Origin: Allobaculum sp. Allo2
GTDB taxonomy: Bacteria > Bacillota_I > Bacilli_A > Erysipelotrichales > Erysipelotrichaceae
Length of the DNA stretch: 64,000 nt
Reading direction: 5' to 3'
Assembly (NCBI RefSeq): GCF_022701175.1
Contig: NZ_CP078088.1
Location: forward strand, 992,001 to 1,056,000
Program-made: the position numbers and the translations under genes
Shown: piece after piece, positions 27,560 to 63,819 of the stretch
Numbering within the stretch: the first letter of the stretch is position 1
Layout of the letters: each line of letters opens with the position of its first letter
The notes under the pieces: generated by a model
Database searches by the model: none
Seen by the model: only the letters and a program-made list of their open reading frames with translations
Told to the model about the DNA's origin: nothing

Positions 27560-27635
27560 GTAAGCGTCAAATAAAAGACGGGTATTTTCTCGACCGCCTC
27601 CTTGGGATAATTCCTTTATTCAAGGAGGCTTTTTC

Positions 27636-28022
27636 ATGGAATCAATCATCCCTGCAATCGATCTCGGTATCGATTTCTCCAAAGTTAAAAACATCTATCT
27701 GGCTCAGATGCCTGCTGACCTTCGCAAAGGAATTGACGGTTACGTCTCCCTGGTTCAAGGACCTCTCGCTCTGGATCCGCTGGATGGATCCCTCTTTCTC
27801 TTCGTTAATCGACAGAAGAACAAGATCAAAGGTATCCTTCGTGACGGAAATGGATTCTGGCTTGTTTATAAGCGACTCTCCAGATCTTCCCTTCAGTGGC
27901 CTGTCAGCCCTGACCAGTCCGACTTCATGCGAATTGACTGTTCGCAGCTGGCTTCTCTGCTTTCCGGTCTGTCGATTGTTCCCCAGCCGGCATTTCTGCC
28001 ACGAACTTATAAGTATGTTTAA
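27636..28022 (+). CDS. tnpB: IS66 accessory protein TnpB
   Basis: 128 residues, intact, behind AAGGAGG. Typical IS66 Orf2 features: YLAQMPADLRKGIDGYVSLV, LFLFVNRQKNKIKGILRDG and GFWLVYKRL. TnpB is needed with the transposase in several IS66 elements, but its biochemical role is not settled. Matches the copy at 56475-56861 except for one Pro/Thr change near WPVS. Confidence 0.95.
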   Translation: MESIIPAIDLGIDFSKVKNIYLAQMPADLRKGIDGYVSLVQGPLALDPLDGSLFLFVNRQKNKIKGILRDGNGFWLVYKRLSRSSLQWPVSPDQSDFMRIDCSQLASLLSGLSIVPQPAFLPRTYKYV

Positions 28023-28035
28023 ACCAATTTAAAAG

Positions 28036-28071
28036 GATGATTTTCTTGAAGGAATATCAAGATAAATCATC
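28036..28071 (+). other. Hairpin between tnpB and tnpC
   Basis: GATGATTTTCTTGA pairs with TCAAGATAAATCATC around a short loop just after the tnpB stop. There is no T run. It is conserved in copy 2 with a compensating-looking change, so it may control tnpC expression. Confidence 0.5.
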
Positions 28072-28114
28072 TAATTTACTTTATCTATCGCTCTAAATAT
28101 GTTAAAATTAATAC

Positions 28115-29957
28115 ATGGATGTGCCGAACCCTTACCAGACAATCCGCAACGAGCTCCTCGAAGATCTTCATCATCAGATCAGCACCATGACGGAAGAAGA
28201 GAAAGACAAATTTATTGAGGATATGTACCTGGATCTCTATTTCGCTAAAGAAATCAATAAAGCCGTGAAAAGCGGCCGCTTTGGTCCTTCTACGGAAAAG
28301 ATGGTTCCCTTGAAACTGGATTACTCTGAAAACGAGGACGGCGGCCCAGATATCAATATTCTGAATAAACAGCTGGCTCAGCTTGATCTGAAAGCCGATG
28401 TTTGTTTTAACCGGGCTGCGAAATATCAGGAAGAGGGAGACCGCTATCGTAAAGAAGCTGAAGATTTAAAGCTCAGTTCTGTTGAAGGAAGCAAGAAAAA
28501 CCTTCCACCAAGTGCAGAAAGCAGGAAGCGGTCAAAGAAACCACTACCTTCAGTGTAGAAGGGAAAAGCGCATTTGCCCAGTTTGCGGCTGTGAGATGAA
28601 AACTGTTGGAATGAAACGTCACTATAGGATTCATCGGATTCCCGCTCGCTATAGGCTGGAAGAAGTGCTGCGTGAGACAGTCGCGTGCCCAAACAAGTGT
28701 ACGGATGAAAACGGGAAAGCCATCATCCGCACCGCCGAACCTGACGAGCCTGCACTGATCGACAAGAGTGTCGCAACTTCCTCTATGGTCGCGGGAATTG
28801 CCTACGATAAGTTCGTAATGGGAACCCCGGCCTATCGTCAGGAAAAGCACCTGAGTCTCACGGGACTGCCGATCAGCCGTCAGACCATGGGCAACATCCT
28901 GGAAAAAACTTACGATCTTTATCTGAAGCCACTCGTAAAACAAATGATTGAGGATCTCCCAAACTGTAACGTCGTCCATATGGATGAGACGGTTTTAAAG
29001 TGCACGGAGGTTAAAGATCGAAAACAGTCTTCTATGGTTGTCGCCGTCAGCGGAATCTATGAAGAGAACCAGATGGCTGTCTATAAGTTTTTCCCTTACA
29101 AGAAACAGGAGTTCGTAATCGCCCTCCTTGGCGGTTCTTTTCGTCATGCCCTTATGACAGACGGGCTTTATGCATATGCCAACTACTATGGCCCCTGCAG
29201 AAAGCTCAACTGTATGGCCCATGCGAGAAGAAAGATCTTCGAAGCCATCAAAGTCCGGTCAGACTTCGCGCAGTATCAGGCAGACGTCCTGAAGTGGGAA
29301 AAGACCACACTGGAGAACGACGAAGAGGCCGCAGAAGCGGCAGCCCAGCTGGACGAAACAGAGAGACCCGAACCAAGTCCGGGTCTCCAGATTCTGCTCA
29401 CAGCCCTGTCTCTGTTCGGGAAGCTCTACCACATCGAATCCCACGTTGCTTCTTACTCGCACGAGGCGAGAACCGAAGTTCGGCAGGAACTTTCAAAGCC
29501 CTGCTTTGAAAGACTCACAAGAGTCATGATGGTGGAGATTCAGAGTGGATTCGAGGAAAGAAGCACCGCCTACAGAGCAGCCAAGTACTTCATGGATCGA
29601 GCGAACTCGTTGGGAAGGTGCCTGGAAGACGGTGATTATCCGATCGACAATAATGTGGCAGAAAGAGCCGTAAAGCCATTCGTGATCAATCGCAAAAACT
29701 TCCAGACTACGAAGAGTATCAAAGGTGCGGAAGTCGTCGCAGCGTTTATGACTTTGTTTCGATCGGCTGAAATGAACGACTTAAATCCAGAGCGCTACAT
29801 GGAGTACGTTCTGGATGAACTCAAATGGTTCAAAGACGATGAAATCGCGGTAGATGTATTGAAGTCACTTCTGCCGTATTCAAAGGATTTACCTGAATAT
29901 CTTCGAATTGGATACCGTGGACCGGATCCGAAGTATGAAGAAAACGATGAAGAATAA
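28115..29957 (+). CDS. tnpC: IS66 transposase TnpC (frame change in the middle)
   Basis: The first frame (28115-28558) gives a helical N-terminal part with GRFGPSTEKM, the usual IS66 start. The second frame (from about 28495 to 29957) gives the zinc-binding segment CPVCGCEM, then the DDE core: Asp in VVHMDETVLK, Asp in LMTDGLYAYANY, and Glu in YPIDNNVAERAVKPF. The IS66 C-terminal segment closes it. The change of frame falls in AAGAAAAACC near 28490-28500 and needs one base fewer or two more. Exactly the same arrangement occurs in copy 2. Either the transposase is made by frameshifting, or both copies carry the same mutation or base-calling error. No ribosome site precedes the ATG. Confidence 0.88.
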
Positions 29958-29960
29958 AAA

Positions 29961-30002
29961 ATACGCCAAGCGGGATCTCGAAAGGGATCCCGTTTAGCGT
30001 AT
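29961..30002 (+). other. Long hairpin at the right end of IS66 copy 1
   Basis: ATACGCCAAGCGGGATC pairs with GGATCCCGTTTAGCGTAT just after the tnpC stop. There is no T run on the plus strand. It is present in copy 2 as well and probably insulates or stops transcription at the element's end. Confidence 0.6.
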
Positions 30003-30047
30003 CTAATATTCAGTCTCGCGTATACCCGTCGATTGTTTGACACTTAC

Positions 30048-52716: not shown

Positions 52717-54444
52717 CTGAAACGTAATTATTTAAGTTTATTTAATTTAAGGAATTTGTCAAGCGATCATAAAAAAATAAACATAGTTAGAAAACACTAA
52801 ATACATTTAAAAACAATTAATCATGGGATAGCAGTCGATACCGAAAAGTGCCGGACGTTTGTAAAAAGGAGCTTGTCTAGGCCATAAGTAACCGATAGTA
52901 TGGTAACCGAACATTCGTTGAAGCCAAATTGCATGCCGCAAGATGTGAAATGATGGGATACCTTCTCATACGATCCATCCCAAGGCATGGGATAAGGCTT
53001 ATACGAGTGGTCGCATGACGGGCGAAAGGCAACACGCATTTAAACAGTTCAGAAAAAATCTTGTTAAAAATGTCCCTTTTCATAGAGTGACTCTCATAGA
53101 GGGAAAGTGATTCTCCTGCGGGAATTGTTCTGGAGGGGCGGTTGTCGCAAAGAAAAAGAAAAGGAAACCCTATTGCAAATTCAGCAGACGTGCTGGGTCG
53201 GCATAGACGCTTCCTGCCGCCGTGCGTTTCTGTTTTTCAGTGAATATGACGATATCCGCCAGACGAATGGAAAAGCAGAAAGCATACCCTGGATCGCCGT
53301 TTTCAAAGCCGTCGATCCGGATTCAAGAATGTGGCCCTTCTTTTGCCGCTTTGAAGTAGATGAAGTATGGAGGGCGATTGTGACACGAAAGAAAACTCTA
53401 CGAAAACTCAGCGCGGCGCTGCTCAGTGCTGCAATGTGTTTCGGATTTCTGATCCCGGTGTTTGCCGAAGGAGAAGGAGACAATCCTTCTTTTGCGCAGA
53501 CGGAGAACATGCCCGTCTCAAATACAGAGCCGTCTGCCGGCAATACCGAAATCTCCGAACCGCAGTCCGATGCATCGGCCGCGCAAGGAAATCCGGATCC
53601 TACGTCGGATCAAAGTACAGAATCTCCAGATGCTGCAGCGGATAATTCTGTACAGGACGCAGAAGAATCCTCGGATTCTTCGAGCTCTTCAGATGAATCG
53701 ACTTCCGTTACCGATTCGAAACCGTCTGACTCCTACAGTGAGGCAGATGGGGAAATCGGCAAGGAAGAAATCGATTCCGCTGAAGATGCAAACGAAAAAG
53801 ACGGGTCGTCTGAAGAGGAGACGCCCGCAAAGACTGTTCAGTTTGAAAAGACCGCCGATCTTATTCATGTAACAGCAAAAACGACTTCCGATATTCTTCC
53901 CGAAGATGCGGAGATGCGCGTAAAGCTCTACTCCGATCAGGATGAAGGATTCCGGGCAGCCGAAAATGCGCTGAACAGCAGCCAGGTGAACTATGACGGT
54001 TTGCTTGTCGTTGATGTCTCGTTCTGGAAAGACGAAAAGGAAATCGAACCCGAAGATGGAACCGTTGACGTCCAGATGTCCTTTAACAAGACGCTGGTCG
54101 ATGACGAAAAAACGGAGAATTCCCTGCAGGTCCATCACATCTCTGAAAAAGACGGAACCAAAGTCGAACAGGTTGCCTGTGAAAGCAAGCAGACCATTCA
54201 GGATGCGAACGAAACTTATAAAGCAGAATTCAAAGTGGACAGTTTTTCTTCCTTCACGATTACCTGGACTCGAGATGAAAAGGCTACCGCCAAAATTACT
54301 TTGTCTGCGGTAGATGAAGAGGGCAACAACTTCAAGCTTCACAAGTACCTGTAACCGTCGAAAGGGTTTCAGATTCTGTAATCATTCGCTTGGAAGCGTA
54401 TGCTCGGACACATGCTCCAGATGGTTATGAGTATGTTCAAGCGA

Positions 54445-54452
54445 AGAAGACT
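54445..54452 (+). repeat. Target site duplication of IS66 copy 2, left
   Basis: AGAAGACT immediately before the terminal repeat, repeated at 56938-56945. Confidence 0.93.
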
Positions 54453-54542
54453 GTAAGTGTCAAACAATCGACGGGTATACGCGAGACTGAATATTAGATA
54501 CGCTAAACGGGATCCCTTTCGAGATCCCGCTTGGCGTATTTT

Positions 54543-56382
54543 TTATTCTTCATCGTTTTCTTCATACTTCGGATCCGGTCCACGGTATCCAATTCGAAGA
54601 TATTCAGGTAAATCCTTTGAATACGGCAGAAGTGACTTCAATACATCTACCGCGATTTCATCGTCTTTGAACCATTTGAGTTCATCCAGAACGTACTCCA
54701 TGTAGCGCTCTGGATTTAAGTCGTTCATTTCAGCCGATCGAAACAAAGTCATAAACGCTGCGACGACTTCCGCACCTTTGATACTCTTCGTAGTCTGGAA
54801 GTTTTTGCGATTGATCACGAATGGCTTTACGGCTCTTTCTGCCACATTATTGTCGATCGGATAATCACCGTCTTCCAGGTACCTTCCCAACGAGTTCGCT
54901 CGATCCATGAAGTACTTGGCTGCTCTGTAGGCGGTGCTTCTTTCCTCGAATCCACTCTGAATCTCCATCATGACTCTTGTGAGTCTTTCAAAGCAGGGCT
55001 TTGAAAGTTCCTGCCGAACTTCGGTTCTCGCCTCGTGCGAGTAAGAAGCAACGTGGGATTCGATGTGGTAGAGCTTCCCGAACAGAGACAGGGCTGTGAG
55101 CAGAATCTGGAGACCCGGACTTGGTTCGGGTCTCTCTGTTTCGTCCAGCTGGGCTGCCGCTTCTGCGGCCTCTTCGTCGTTCTCCAGTGTGGTCTTTTCC
55201 CACTTCAGGACGTCTGCCTGATACTGCGCGAAGTCTGACCGGACTTTGATGGCTTCGAAGATCTTTCTTCTCGCATGGGCCATACAGTTGAGCTTTCTGC
55301 AGGGGCCATAGTAGTTGGCATATGCATAAAGCCCGTCTGTCATAAGGGCATGACGAAAAGAACCGCCAAGGAGGGCGATTACGAACTCCTGTTTCTTGTA
55401 AGGGAAAAACTTATAGACAGCCATCTGGTTCTCTTCATAGATTCCGCTGACGGCGACAACCATAGAAGACTGTTTTCGATCTTTAACCTCCGTGCACTTT
55501 AAAACCGTCTCATCCATATGGACGACGTTACAGTTTGGGAGATCCTCAATCATTTGTTTTACGAGGGGCTTCAGATAAAGATCGTAAGTTTTTTCCAGGA
55601 TGTTGCCCATGGTCTGACGGCTGATCGGCAGTCCCGTGAGACTCAGGTGCTTTTCCTGACGATAGGCCGGGGTTCCCATTACGAACTTATCGTAGGCAAT
55701 TCCCGCGACCATAGAGGAAGTTGCGACACTCTTGTCGATCAGTGCAGGCTCGTCAGGTTCGGCGGTGCGGATGATGGCTTTCCCGTTTTCATCCGTACAC
55801 TTGTTTGGGCACGCGACTGTCTCACGCAGCACTTCTTCCAGCCTATAGCGAGCGGGAATCCGATGAATCCTATAGTGACGTTTCATTCCAACAGTTTTCA
55901 TCTCACAGCCGCAAACTGGGCAAATGCGCTTTTCCCTTCTACACTGAAGGTAGTGGTTTCTTTGACCGCTTCCTGCTTTCTGCACTTGGTGGAAGGTTTT
56001 TCTTGCTTCCTTCAACAGAACTGAGCTTTAAATCTTCAGCTTCTTTACGATAGCGGTCTCCCTCTTCCTGATATTTCGCAGCCCGGTTAAAACAAACATC
56101 GGCTTTCAGATCAAGCTGAGCCAGCTGTTTATTCAGAATATTGATATCTGGGCCGCCGTCCTCGTTTTCAGAGTAATCCAGTTTCAAGGGAACCATCTTT
56201 TCCGTAGAAGGACCAAAGCGGCCGCTTTTCACGGCTTTATTGATTTCTTTAGCGAAATAGAGATCCAGGTACATATCCTCAATAAATTTGTCTTTCTCTT
56301 CTTCCGTCATGGTGCTGATCTGATGATGAAGATCTTCGAGGAGCTCGTTGCGGATTGTCTGGTAAGGGTTCGGCACATTCAT
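54543..56382 (-). CDS. tnpC: IS66 transposase TnpC, copy 2 (same mid-gene frame change)
   Basis: Begins MNVPNPYQTIRNELLEDLHH at 56382. It changes frame near 56000 at the same GAAAAAC run as copy 1 and ends at 54543. The DDE residues and IS66 C-terminal segment are kept. Because both copies transposed (each has clean target repeats) and share the frame change, the arrangement may be functional, by ribosomal frameshifting or by two separate polypeptides. Confidence 0.88.
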
Positions 56383-56474
56383 GTATTAATTTTAACATAT
56401 TTAGAGCGATAGATAAAGTAAATGGGATGATTTATCTTGATATTCCTTCAAGAAAATCATCCTTTTAAATTGGT

Positions 56475-56861
56475 TTAAACATACTTATAAGTTCGTGGCA
56501 GAAATGCCGGCTGGGGAACAATCGACAGACCGGAAAGCAGAGAAGCCAGCTGCGAACAGTCAATTCGCATGAAGTCGGACTGGTCAGTGCTGACAGGCCA
56601 CTGAAGGGAAGATCTGGAGAGTCGCTTATAAACAAGCCAGAATCCATTTCCGTCACGAAGGATACCTTTGATCTTGTTCTTCTGTCGATTAACGAAGAGA
56701 AAGAGGGATCCATCCAGCGGATCCAGAGCGAGAGGTCCTTGAACCAGGGAGACGTAACCGTCAATTCCTTTGCGAAGGTCAGCAGGCATCTGAGCCAGAT
56801 AGATGTTTTTAACTTTGGAGAAATCGATACCGAGATCGATTGCAGGGATGATTGATTCCAT
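56475..56861 (-). CDS. tnpB: IS66 accessory protein TnpB, copy 2
   Basis: 128 residues, intact, one residue different from copy 1 (Thr for Pro after WPVS). Behind AAGGAGG on the minus strand. Same family hallmarks (MPADLRKGIDGY, LFVNRQKNKIKG). Confidence 0.95.
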   Translation of the reverse strand: MESIIPAIDLGIDFSKVKNIYLAQMPADLRKGIDGYVSLVQGPLALDPLDGSLFLFVNRQKNKIKGILRDGNGFWLVYKRLSRSSLQWPVSTDQSDFMRIDCSQLASLLSGLSIVPQPAFLPRTYKYV

Positions 56862-56937
56862 GAAAAAGCCTCCTTGAATAAAGGAATTATCCCAAGGAGG
56901 CGGTCGAGAAAATACCCGTCTTTTATTTGACGCTTAC

Positions 56938-56945
56938 AGAAGACT
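56938..56945 (+). repeat. Target site duplication of IS66 copy 2, right
   Basis: AGAAGACT, identical to 54445-54452. Confidence 0.93.
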
Positions 56946-58453
56946 GGCGGAGGTAGCGTTTATATTATTGATGAGATTCAGTTAACCAAGAGTAAAAAGG
57001 TATTACTGCTTCTTACTGCTATAAGAATGAACAGAGTTATTCTGAGACACAATCTTTGGATTACAGCTTCTCAGCGGATTTGGTCTATCGGAAAAAGACA
57101 CCTGATATGTATGTGTTGAACTTCGACAATAACGGTGGACCTGATCTTGTCCTGCAACCAAAAACAGGGCAGCGAGGAGAAATCGTCACTCTTCCAGATG
57201 TGAACGTAGAACGACCAGGATATAAATTCCTGGGCTGGTCTATTTCAAAGGATCTGCGAAACGGTAATGGAGATCCTCTGTATCCAGCCTCTACGCCTTA
57301 TCAGCTTACGCAGGAGAATCAAACGCTTTACGCAATCTGGCAAGATGAGAGTGTTAATTTGCCTGCAGAGTTCTATATCCGGTTAGATGGTGAGATCCCA
57401 TTCGAACCGAGTGATTACAAGACTGGCGATTACACGGACATGATCAAGATTGAGGGAGCAATTCAGGAAGAACGTTGGATTATTGACAACAGCCATAACG
57501 GTTATGTGGAAAAAACGACCCGAAAGTCAACGCCTTAAATGATGTTTCACAAAAACTGAATGTCCTTCCGACCGCAGATCAGATTCAAAATGTGATGAAG
57601 AAAGCAGGCCATGATTTTGATCCGGAAACTGATTATGTGCTCTGGTATGTGCAAAAGCTTCAAAACCTTTCCGAAAATGAAGGAAAAGGAAGATGGCATG
57701 TAGACGGAGTTGTATTGAAAAAGCAGCTTGTCAACGTTACATACAATCGAAACTGTGATGATAACTCAGTCCAGGTACCTTCTGGATATCAGAAAGAGCT
57801 TGGGACTGAGATCACAGTAGGTCATGACAGTGATGGAAAAGAAGTTGTCCCTGAGCGCGTTGGATATATTTTCCTTGGCTGGACGAAAACTCCGGATGGA
57901 ACTGGACAGACGATCTATCACAGTCTGGATCCTTACATTCTGAACGAAAATACGACCTTTTATGCGCAGTGGGCTTTGGATTTGAAACAGCTCATTGTTC
58001 GAAAAAGTGTTGTGGGTAACTTTGCGGATCGAACGCAGAAGTTTGAGTTCCACGTTCGAGTGTTAGATAGCGACTACAAGCCTTATCTGTCTGCAAACTC
58101 AGCGATTGAGCCTGACGACGCAGGATGGTACACATTTGATCTGAGTAATGGTGATCAATGCATTTTCAATGTTCCGCAAGGCGGTCATTATCAGGTGTGG
58201 GAAGATCCATTGGGATACACCGCATCCTACAAAATCACCACTCAAACGAAGACGGAATCTGGTAGTACGAACGATACTGGATCAAAAGAGTTTAACGGGG
58301 AAACAGTGGTAATCTTCCAGAATGAAAAGCAGGGAACTGTTCCTGGTGGTCTTCACGATGACAGTGAAGAAAATTCAGTTCTTGTTACCGGCGGTGCTTT
58401 AGGCATTCTGGCTCTCGCAGCCTATTCCTTAATTTTCCAAAAGGAACGTGAAC

Positions 58454-58744
58454 ATGAGCAGCGCTAAAAGCAAAGGGAAAACCACACCTGAGAAAAAGAA
58501 AAAATGAGCCCGGAATCCTGCAAGAACATGGAGGATCTGGCTCAGTTCATTTCCCAGATGAAATTTACCAAAAGACTTTTGGCGGTGTAAGTGAGCTGAG
58601 CGTATGGCGTCAGATGGAAGAATTGCAGAAAGCCTATCGAACCGTCATGGCGTGTCAGGAATCGTACTACCGAGCTTTGCTGGATGAAAAAGATCTGGAA
58701 ATCCAGAAACTCAAAAGCAGCGATTCCTCTTCGCTTAGCGAATA
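58454..58744 (+). CDS. Small helical protein of the pilus operon, unknown (two frameshifts)
   Basis: ATG at 58454 overlaps the adhesin's last codons and is preceded by the AAAAGGAACG region. Joined across two A-run losses (near 58505 and 58575), it reads MSSAKSKGKTTPEKKKK, then MSPESCKNMEDLAQFISQM, KTFGGVSELSVWRQMEELQK and AYRTVMACQESYYRALLDEK, ending in a Ser-rich tail. About 97 residues, very basic at the start. It is probably an alpha-helical or coiled-coil soluble protein without signal peptide. No family is recognised. Its place between the adhesin and the sipA-like gene makes it part of the pilus transcript, and streptococcal FCT loci have no obvious counterpart known to me. Confidence 0.6.
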
Positions 58745-58780
58745 AAAATTTAAATGCTCCATATAAGAGGTTAGAAATCA

Positions 58781-59459: not shown

Positions 59460-60515
59460 ATGAAAAACTTTAAGTCTCTCGCAGCTCTTACAGCAGCAAG
59501 CATGATTTCTCTGGCTAGCGTAGCTACTCCGATCTTCGCAGCTGAGGGCAGTACACCAACATTCAACACAACTTTAACTACTCACGATGGACATCACCCT
59601 GCAACAGCTACAACCTTCTCCTATACGATCACGCCTGCTATAGGTGATTCTGAATGGTCTGAGACGGCTGCTGGAGGTACGATTTTCAACGGTGAAGCTG
59701 CACCCAATCTGCATGTAGAAGCTGATGCAGCTCCAGAAGATGTTGATACTACTAAAAATATTATTGAGTACACCCAGAGCAGGATCGTATGTGACAACGT
59801 AAATGCTTTTAAAGGAGCCGGTGTATTTAAATACACGATCAGCGCTGATGACAAAACTGGTGATAACTACCACGGAGTTACTGTGGATACGAAGACTTAC
59901 GATCTGTATGTAAACGTAGAATGGGAGGGCACCAATAAGGTAATCAAGAGTTATACCTTCAGAAAGGCTGGCACAGACGTAACCGATCCAGCAGGCAAGG
60001 AAGATGACCTCGTGTTTGCGCATGAGTATGATACGCGTCCGCTGACTGTCTCCAAAACTGTAGGTGGTAATCAGGGAGACAAGGCGCAGAAATTTGACTT
60101 CACGCTCACTGTTACGAAAAAGCCTGGACAGACATTCACCATTAAAAGTAATAACAATCAAGAGATTACTCCGGCCACTAGTACAGCAGATGATCAGGTG
60201 ACTTACATCTTCAAACTTGCTGACAGTGAATTCGTAACGATTGACGGTTTGACAGCTGATGATATCTACACAGTAGAAGAGCAGAGAGCTGGGTATGAAG
60301 CAAAACACAGCATTAATGATGCGGCTGATCTCCCTGGATCCAAAGCTGAAAACATTGCAATCAACGATGGACAGGAAGATAAAATCAAATTCACCAACAC
60401 CAAAGATGGTAACGTTCCCACGGGTATCCTGATGACTGCTGCTCCTTATGTAGCTGTAGTTGGTCTGGGCGGTGTATTCGCTGGCATGTTCTTCCGTCGT
60501 AAACGCGAAGACTAA
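59460..60515 (+). CDS. fctA: Major pilin, FctA (T-antigen)-like, sortase-anchored
   Basis: 351 residues, intact. Start chosen at ATG 59460 (MKNFKSLAALTAASMISLAS) behind AGAGGAAAG. The signal peptide ends near FAAEG. Two pilin domains follow. The first has FSYTITPAIG, GVFKYTISADDK and the streptococcal pilin repeat text YHGVTVDTKTYDLYVNVE. The second has AQKFDFTLTVTKK and an E-box YTVEEQRAGY, typical of intramolecular Lys-Asn isopeptide bonds. The C-terminal sorting signal is VPTG, a hydrophobic stretch (AAPYVAVVGLGGVFAG) and RRKRED. It forms the pilus shaft after polymerisation by the sortase downstream. Sequence is AT-richer than the housekeeping genes. Confidence 0.9.
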   Translation: MKNFKSLAALTAASMISLASVATPIFAAEGSTPTFNTTLTTHDGHHPATATTFSYTITPAIGDSEWSETAAGGTIFNGEAAPNLHVEADAAPEDVDTTKNIIEYTQSRIVCDNVNAFKGAGVFKYTISADDKTGDNYHGVTVDTKTYDLYVNVEWEGTNKVIKSYTFRKAGTDVTDPAGKEDDLVFAHEYDTRPLTVSKTVGGNQGDKAQKFDFTLTVTKKPGQTFTIKSNNNQEITPATSTADDQVTYIFKLADSEFVTIDGLTADDIYTVEEQRAGYEAKHSINDAADLPGSKAENIAINDGQEDKIKFTNTKDGNVPTGILMTAAPYVAVVGLGGVFAGMFFRRKRED

Positions 60516-60593: not shown

Positions 60594-61366
60594 ATGGACA
60601 GAGCTGCAAAACTGGCCCGGATGGGAGATCGACTGATCAGTTTCATCGCAATGATTCTTGTTCTTTGCATGATGCTGTACGGCGGCTATTCTCTCCTGGA
60701 CAACTGGCGCTTGTCGCAGGCAGGCTTTGGTTCCGATCTGATGAAATACAAACCGGCTCCTGGCCAGTCCTGGTCAATGGATGAACTGGTGGCGATGAAC
60801 AAAGACGTGATCGGATGGATTACGATCGATGATACACATATCGACCAGCCGATTGTTCAGGGCAAGGATGACATGGAATATGTGAATAAGGATCCTCTGG
60901 GAGACTTCTCTCTTTCGGGTTCGATCTTCCTTTCCTGTCTGAACAGCCTGGACTTCTCGGATCCCTATTCGCTGCTGTATGGACATCATATGGAAAACGG
61001 CGGAATGTTCGGAGATCTGACGAAGTTCCTGAAAAAGGACTATTTCGATGATCACAAAACGGGGACGCTGTATTCTCTGGATTCGCAATGGGATATCGAA
61101 GTGTTTGCGGTACTGAAAACTGATGCTGCAGACCCGGACGTATATTCCATTCCGCAGGGAGCTTCGACTCTTGACGGACGATTCCTGGAACGGCTCAAAA
61201 AGACTGCCAGCAGTACCGCGATATCGGCGTAAAGCCGGATCAGCAGATCATTGCTCTTTCGACTTGCTATGACGTTGAAACAAATGGACGCGTCCTTCTC
61301 TTTGGCCGCATCCAGAATAAGCAGGAGGTGAAGAATGCTAATGAAAATTCGTATGAACAAAATTAA
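60594..61366 (+). CDS. Class B-type pilus sortase (one frameshift)
   Basis: About 257 residues; ATG 60594 behind AAAGGAGAAAGAG. N-terminal membrane anchor (LISFIAMILVLCMMLYGGYSLL). The sortase fold shows DVIGWITIDDTHIDQPIVQG, catalytic His in LLYGHHMENGGMFGDL, catalytic Cys in IALSTCYDVE and Arg in NGRVLLFGRI. The one-base loss near 61212 lies between KKTAS and QYRDIGVKP; without repair the Cys and Arg would be lost. The HHMENGGMF pattern is of class B sortases, as for SrtC2 of streptococcal FCT loci. It should polymerise the pilin by transpeptidation at VPTG-type signals. It overlaps the next gene by 32 nt. Confidence 0.9.
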
Positions 61367-62101
61367 GCATCTTCTTCTTGCCGGTCTTCTATTCGTGATG
61401 TCCTTTCAGCCGATTTCGGTTTACGCGGCGTCTTCAGTCGATGTAAACATCCCGGTTTCCACCTTCTTTACGGAAGGAAAACCGAAACCGGGTCCCGAAG
61501 TATCGGTTGTAACGGAATTCCGACTTGAAGCTGTTGACGGCGCACCGCTTCCTCAGAAAACCGTACTTCGCATTAACGGCGAAGGGAAAGACTGGTTTGG
61601 AAATATCACGTATACCGTCCCTGGCGACTACTATTACGTGCTCGTTTCCGATCTGATCGAGGGAGACAACTGTGAACTGCTGATTGAAGACGATACGACG
61701 ATCCGCGTTTCGATCACGAATGGTGAAGACGGCCTGGTGGCTGTCGTGAAGGCCTATCCGTCAATGGATCATGCGGCGTCGGATCAGGCGAAACGCGATA
61801 CCATGCAGGAAATTCAGTACAAGCCGACGATCGACCCGGGCGATGACAGCTCGGACACTTCCTCCGGCTCCAGCAGCGACAAGTCTGATTCAGGCAATAA
61901 GCCAAGTGATTCAGGAAGCAAACCTGGCGGTTCGAATGGATCGGGAAGCAACTCCAGCTCCTCGAATCCCCCACCAAGGGCCATGGACCGAACACTGCCG
62001 CAGCGCTTAGTGCCAACCTTTGGATCTGGATTGCTCTTTCCGCAACGATCATTCTGATCTTCACGCAGAGAAAGCTTTCCCGTGATAAATCGAACCGGTA
62101 A
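61335..62101 (+). CDS. fctB: Minor/basal pilin, FctB-like (one frameshift)
   Basis: About 256 residues; ATG 61335, 6 nt after AGGAGG, inside the sortase gene. Signal peptide MNKIKHLLLAGLLFVMSFQP. One pilin domain (VDVNIPVSTFFTEGKPKPG, ITYTVPGDYYYVLVSD, AVVKAYPSM) is close to FctB/Spy0130-type basal pilins. A long Ser/Asp/Gly/Lys linker (61840-61965) follows. After a lost C near 61972, the end is PTKGHGPNTAAAL, a hydrophobic helix (LWIWIALSATIILIF) and RKLSRDKSNR. It probably anchors the pilus to the wall. Last gene of the pilus operon. Confidence 0.82.
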
Positions 62102-62335: not shown

Positions 62336-62359
62336 TTGTATGTTAAGGAGTTGATTGTT

Positions 62360-63819
62360 TTGTCTCGTAAAGTTAGAACTCGTTTTGCCCCATCTCCGAC
62401 TGGCTATATGCACATTGGCAACCTGCGTACAGCTCTGTTTGAGTATCTGATTGCCAAACACGATAACGGCGACTTCCTGCTTCGTATTGAAGATACGGAC
62501 CAGGGACGAAAAGTCGAAGGCGCAGTAGATATTATTTATAAAACTCTGAAAGATGTCGGCCTGAACTGGGACGAAGGACCAGATATCGGCGGCAATTTCG
62601 GACCGTATATTCAGTCTGAGCGTCTTCCTATGTATAAAGGCTATGCCGAAGAACTCGTAAAAACCGGCCATGCCCACTACTGCTTCTGCTCGGAAGAGGA
62701 AATTGAAGCGCAGCGCAAGGAAGCTGAATCCTCGGTATTTCCTTCAAGTTTGACGATCCCTGCAAGCATCTTGATGCCAAGGAAGTGCAGGAGCGTATCG
62801 ATCGCGGTGATCCGTTTGTTATTCGTCAGACCATTTCCAATGTCGGAGAAACATCCTTTGATGACATGGTTTACGGCCACATCGAATTTGACGGCGACCT
62901 GCTCGACGAGCAGATCCTGCTGAAATCCGACGGCTATCCTACGTATAACTTCGCCAACATCATCGATGACCACACGATGGAAATCAGCCACGTTGTTCGC
63001 GGCAACGAATACCTGTCTTCGACCCCGAAATACAACCTGATTTATGACGCGTATGGATGGGAAAGACCTACTTATGTTCACGTTCCGCCCGTAATGAAAG
63101 ATGAGAAGCATAAGCTGTCCAAGCGTAACGGCGATGCGTCCTTCCAGGATCTCGTAGCCAAAGGCTATCTGCCCGCTGCCATTATCAACTACATTGCGCT
63201 GCTGGGCTGGGCACCGCCAACGGAGCAGGAGATCTACACGCTCGAAGAGCTGATCGATGTCTTCGATGTATCCCGCATTTCCCGCTCTCCGGCGATTTTC
63301 GATATCGACAAACTGACCTGGATGAACGGCGTCTATCTGCGCAGCATGGATGAGGATACATACTTTGAAACGGTTAGACCGTATCTGGAAAAAGCTGTCA
63401 AAGGTCCGTATTCCCATCGTGAAATCGCGAAGATCATCCAGCCGCGTATCGATATTCTCAACCAGATCGAAGAGGCTGTTGATTTCTTTGATCAGCCAGG
63501 CGACTACGATCTCGAGATGTATCGTCACAAGAAAATGAAATCCACACCGGAAACGGCCCTGACCGCACTGAAAGCCGCGCGTGAAGCCATTGCCGGTATT
63601 CAGGACTGGACAGAAGAAAACGTTCACGAAACTCTGCTTGCTCTGCCAAAGGAAATGGGCATGAAAAACGGGCAGGTTCTCTGGCCTGTACGTACTGCCG
63701 TATCCGGCAAGCAGTTCACCCCGGGCGGCGCGATTGAAATCGTGCATATCCTGGGCAAAGACGAATCCCTCGCTCGAATTGATCAGGGAATCGCGCGTCT
63801 CGAAGAGGTGCTCGCCTAG
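62360..63819 (+). CDS. gltX: Glutamyl-tRNA synthetase (one frameshift)
   Basis: About 487 residues, normal length. Start chosen at TTG 62360, nine nt after AAGGAG, giving the usual [20 protein letters not shown] with the HIGH-type motif HIGN. The KMSKS motif is KLSKRNGD. A one-base loss near 62738, between AESS and the [13 protein letters not shown]-type text, separates the halves. The enzyme charges tRNA-Glu, and probably tRNA-Gln as well, whose product GatCAB (encoded at 23496-26570) would amidate. No glnS is visible in the window. Essential, so the break is likely an error. Confidence 0.95.

Follow-up and report, generated by a model that had tools for sequence, protein, structure and literature searches.

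Pili of the FCT-3 type in Streptococcus pyogenes are encoded by the operon cpa-sipA-fctA-srtC-fctB. The operon described here resembles it in gene order, in an FctA-like major pilin with a VPTG-type sorting signal, in a signal-peptidase-like gene and in a probable class B sortase. It differs from FCT-3, however, in its first gene, which contains Listeria-Bacteroides repeats and a DUF7601 domain but no recognised thioester domain, and whose tail is TVPGG rather than VPTG; besides, a small extra frame may precede sipA. The element that interrupts this first gene exhibits the hallmarks of the IS66 family, i.e. an 8-bp target duplication, inverted ends of the GTAAG type, TnpB and a TnpC transposase of the DDE type, whereas it lacks tnpA, its tnpC is read in two frames even in the consensus of copies, and the nearest TnpC matches among 273 genomes of the bacterial family are 34-35% identical. 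In Agrobacterium, IS66 copies flanked by unmatched 8-mers have been ascribed to recombination between copies, and those flanked by matched 8-mers to original insertions (PMC6778807).

The pilus operon and its interrupted first gene

The features of the locus are given below as positions in the window, i.e. the whole stretch of 64,000 nucleotides that was analysed.

53380..54452, + strand: 5' part of the first pilus gene (putative tip adhesin); GTG start, GGAGG upstream, signal peptide
54445..54452, + strand: target duplication, left copy (AGAAGACT), by sequence match
54453..56937, - strand: complete IS66-family element, 2,485 bp; transposase genes antisense to the operon
54498..54545, + strand: strong predicted intrinsic-terminator hairpin in the element, facing the adhesin/operon direction; stem followed by TTTTTT
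54543..56015, - strand: tnpC main frame, DDE_Tnp_IS66 (PF03050, E 4.2e-60)
55939..56382, - strand: tnpC N-terminus, read in a different frame (sub-threshold match to LZ_Tnp_IS66)
56475..56861, - strand: tnpB, IS66 Orf2 (PF05717, E 3e-29)
56938..56945, + strand: target duplication, right copy (AGAAGACT), by sequence match
56946..58467, + strand: 3' part of the first pilus gene; two Listeria-Bacteroides repeats, DUF7601, TVPGG-type sorting tail, membrane segment
58684..59337, + strand: signal-peptidase-like gene in the sipA position (PF10502 and TIGR02227, above cut-off)
59460..60515, + strand: FctA-like major pilin with a VPTGI sorting signal (PF12892 above, TIGR03065 just above cut-off)
60594..61232, + strand: probable class B sortase (TIGR03064, just under cut-off), shortened by a frame break that is probably an assembly error
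61335..62057, + strand: candidate fctB-like basal pilin, mainly by operon position

The order adhesin, signal peptidase, FctA, class B sortase, basal pilin is of the FCT type, and it recurs in a congener (from the 3' end of the adhesin gene to FctB, the contig beginning inside the adhesin gene) and in two loci of one more distant relative. The nearest solved relatives of the FctA-like protein are streptococcal T-antigen pilins (PDB 8f70, E 1.5e-14). The truncated sortase frame covers positions 7-183 of 235 in TIGR03064 and scores 150.6 bits, just short of the cut-off at 153.75, and the fctB-like candidate exhibits weak matches, both under cut-off, to FctA (E 0.087) and EF0750 (E 0.0012). The frames of sipA, fctA and fctB are open. 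Between the adhesin gene and the signal peptidase gene, at 58467-58750, there is a small open stretch (...MEELQKAYRTVMACQESYYRALLDEKDLEIQKLKSSDSSSLSE) that may represent an extra small gene.

We refer to the first gene as a putative tip adhesin from its position in the operon. Its 5' part includes a Ser/Glu-rich stretch. Neither half gave a family match to Cpa-like sequence (thioester domain, VPTG signal), and the match to pilus_ancill_1 is confined to a C-terminal pilin-like domain and lies far under the cut-off. In one relative (L065), an ORF of 2439 aa contains matches to both halves, in the same frame and separated by about 400 bases, and in another (L078) the frames R2 and R1 of the 3' part lie within one ORF. 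Relatives of the same gene were not found by DNA comparison in four congeners, and a scan of genome contigs for them returned repeat-domain matches only.

An earlier note, made from the letters of this stretch, had proposed that an IS66 element with an intact 8-bp duplication sits in the pilus adhesin gene and parts its signal-peptide half from its sorting-signal half. Our analysis bears this out: the element is complete, AGAAGACT stands at both of its edges, and a full adhesin cannot be read through the insertion. The junction peptides were also given correctly. The last residues of the left frame, ...YEYVQAKKT, coincide exactly with the end of the first duplication, the right frame (GGGSVYIIDEIQ...) begins directly after the second, and the two are in the same phase, the host frame running on across the duplication. 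A further + strand occurrence of AGAAGACT inside the element, at 55464, is a chance occurrence, because five matches on both strands are seen where 1.9 are expected. An uninterrupted adhesin elsewhere, which according to the same note would have spoken against the loss of the protein, was searched for throughout the genome; either half occurs once in the assembly, and no second copy of either was found. A protein with DUF7601 at genome position 1704305 was considered as a second adhesin and rejected, as it is a different sortase-anchored protein with no pilus operon nearby. It is a large surface protein, broken into several frames (genome 1696500-1711500).

The IS66-family element and its copies

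The ends of the element, GTAAGTGTCAAACAATCGACGGGTAT and GTAAGCGTCAAATAAAAGACGGGTAT, agree at 22 of 26 positions (manual count), and its terminal inverted repeats begin with GTAA. In the main frame of tnpC, zf-IS66 and IS66_C were matched below their cut-offs. The interval from tnpB (56861) to the element's right end (56937) holds no ORF for tnpA and leaves no room for one; some groups of IS66 have no tnpA, and its absence concerns the subgroup to which the element belongs, not its membership in the family. The division of tnpC into an N-terminal and a DDE frame falls at an A-run (55939-56015) and is retained in the consensus of 31 copies, and it may reflect a homopolymer error that recurs systematically, or else a programmed frameshift. 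In addition, at a C-run, the copy in the pilus gene departs from the majority, with a variant common to 12 copies.

The earlier note spoke of two IS66 copies, but the single 2.73-Mb contig carries 33 near-identical ones, of which 31 could be aligned at full length, the other two being interrupted. One copy (1621785-1624269) is base-for-base identical to that in the pilus gene. The second copy in the window (27560-30047, minus strand) is flanked by a duplication of its own, GGTCAGCG, and contains three additional bases. Each interrupted copy (1342438-1350576 and 761859-769957) contains an element of about 1.6 kb; these two elements exhibit no match to each other, and by eye, the translation of one looks like an IS4-type transposase and that of the other like one of the IS256/mutator type.

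Close relatives of the IS66 element are absent from the four congeners at the DNA level, a search of 316 genomes from the order gave no protein match at E 1e-100 outside the source genome, and plasmids and viral contigs yielded none at the limits used. From these comparisons, the element was probably acquired and amplified recently. Open frames at its 33 sites are shorter than at random nearby points (median 158 vs 342 codons), as would be expected if hits in genes were mostly purged, which these lengths suggest.

With so many near-identical copies in a noisy assembly, misjoins are possible in principle, and the junctions at the pilus gene could be an artefact in which two copies were collapsed or misjoined, a possibility that the earlier note itself had raised against its reading. 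The flanks contradict it. All 33 copies carry matched 8-bp duplications, 27 of them exact and six up to homopolymer length, whereas none of the 1,056 cross-pairings of the left 8-mer of one copy with the right 8-mer of another gives a match. A misjoin would combine unlike 8-mers, while here the two 8-mers of each copy match each other and those of no other copy; in addition, the frame of the host adhesin is unbroken across the insertion site. A misjoin between IS copies is therefore very unlikely and was rejected, and we give an artefact at these junctions hardly any credence. The window copy is an original insertion, because its own 8-mers match and no cross-match occurs. The 33 matched duplications thus serve as an internal control for the correctness of the assembly and for homopolymer error.

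Frame breaks in the adhesin gene and in the assembly

Apart from the insertion, the adhesin gene is out of frame at three places, one in its 5' part (near 54330) and two in its 3' part (near 57000, within 56980-57030, and near 57535). The frames of the sortase and of the end of rlmD are also broken off, and the completeness of the genome is estimated at 58.4%. Long-read metagenome assemblies are known for single-base indel errors (PMC6785717). An internal sign of such errors is gltX, an essential gene that is split into two frames at 62336-63819 of the window. Among the 31 aligned IS copies about 42 indel events were counted manually in 77 kb, mostly in homopolymers, which amounts to ~0.55 per kb; at this rate ~1.4 breaks are expected in the 2.6 kb of the adhesin gene, where three are seen.

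One may ask if the adhesin gene was a pseudogene in decay before the element landed, so that the insertion changed nothing. The three breaks do lie outside the element, they are somewhat more numerous than expected, and across the genome the element tends to sit outside long open frames. Against this, gltX, the sortase gene and rlmD are broken in a similar way, and the same kind of indels distinguish copies of one young IS, so that we consider prior decay unlikely. Because homopolymer indels occur throughout the assembly, the three extra breaks are probably long-read assembly indels, and decay is not proven by them, although some, before or after the insertion, is conceivable. The significance of the locus is mainly that of a caution, as one gene here combines a genuine IS insertion with indels of the assembly, and the two need to be separated.

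Predicted consequences for piliation and comparison with known systems

The event is an ordinary case of a pilus gene inactivated by an inserted IS66 element while that IS was expanding in the genome. We propose that an IS66-family element recently amplified to 33 copies in the source genome and that one copy transposed into the first gene, coding for the putative tip adhesin, of an FCT-like pilus operon with a probable class B sortase, duplicating 8 bp, after which the adhesin would not be made. Transcription from the adhesin promoter is predicted to stop at a terminator ~50-90 bp inside the element, and the expression of sipA, fctA, the sortase gene and fctB would be reduced or off unless they are served by an unseen internal promoter. 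This explanation as a whole (recent amplification, insertion into the pilus gene, loss of the adhesin, predicted polarity and the other breaks as indels) is in our judgement very probably correct.

The hairpin was not listed by a pattern scan and was revealed by folding, which gave -23.2 kcal/mol (z -6.8), with none of 200 shuffles folding as well. A consensus scan, which has little power, counted seven promoter-like sites in the region when both strands were taken together, fewer than the 10.4 that chance would give, and it found no convincing promoter between the hairpin and fctA.

According to the earlier note, the rest of the operon looks functional and the strain may make tipless pili, or its population may be mixed for the insertion. 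The open frames of sipA, fctA and fctB agree with the first of these, but in the assembly the frame of the sortase is broken, probably by error, and the predicted terminator faces the operon. Tipless pili would require that an internal or IS-borne promoter drives the downstream genes and that FctA polymerises without the tip subunit. That sipA and fctA are open speaks for this, as does a review according to which deletion of the tip gene in several GAS types lowers the amount of polymerised major subunit (PMC7900414), so that some polymer would remain. Given the orientation of the hairpin and promoter-like sites fewer than chance, we regard tipless pili as possible but on the unlikely side. 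Low or absent piliation appears at least as likely, because the predicted terminator of the IS faces adhesin transcription; in group A streptococci, polymer levels already fall when the tip gene alone is lost (PMC7900414). It is also conceivable, with only a slight probability, that the insertion acts through this terminator as a heritable off-switch of the pilus operon, kept at intermediate frequency by selection for non-piliated cells.

The removal of a surface structure in the course of an IS expansion is already known from other bacteria, and our literature search found no paper joining IS interruption with the tip adhesin of a sortase-assembled pilus. A parallel is the iso-IS30 element at spaCBA of Lactobacillus rhamnosus, where an IS alters pilus capacity between strains (PMC3744422), as it may here. 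In L. rhamnosus, however, the IS is reported as a source of a promoter (PMC3744422), whereas the element described here interrupts the first gene of the operon and carries a predicted terminator.
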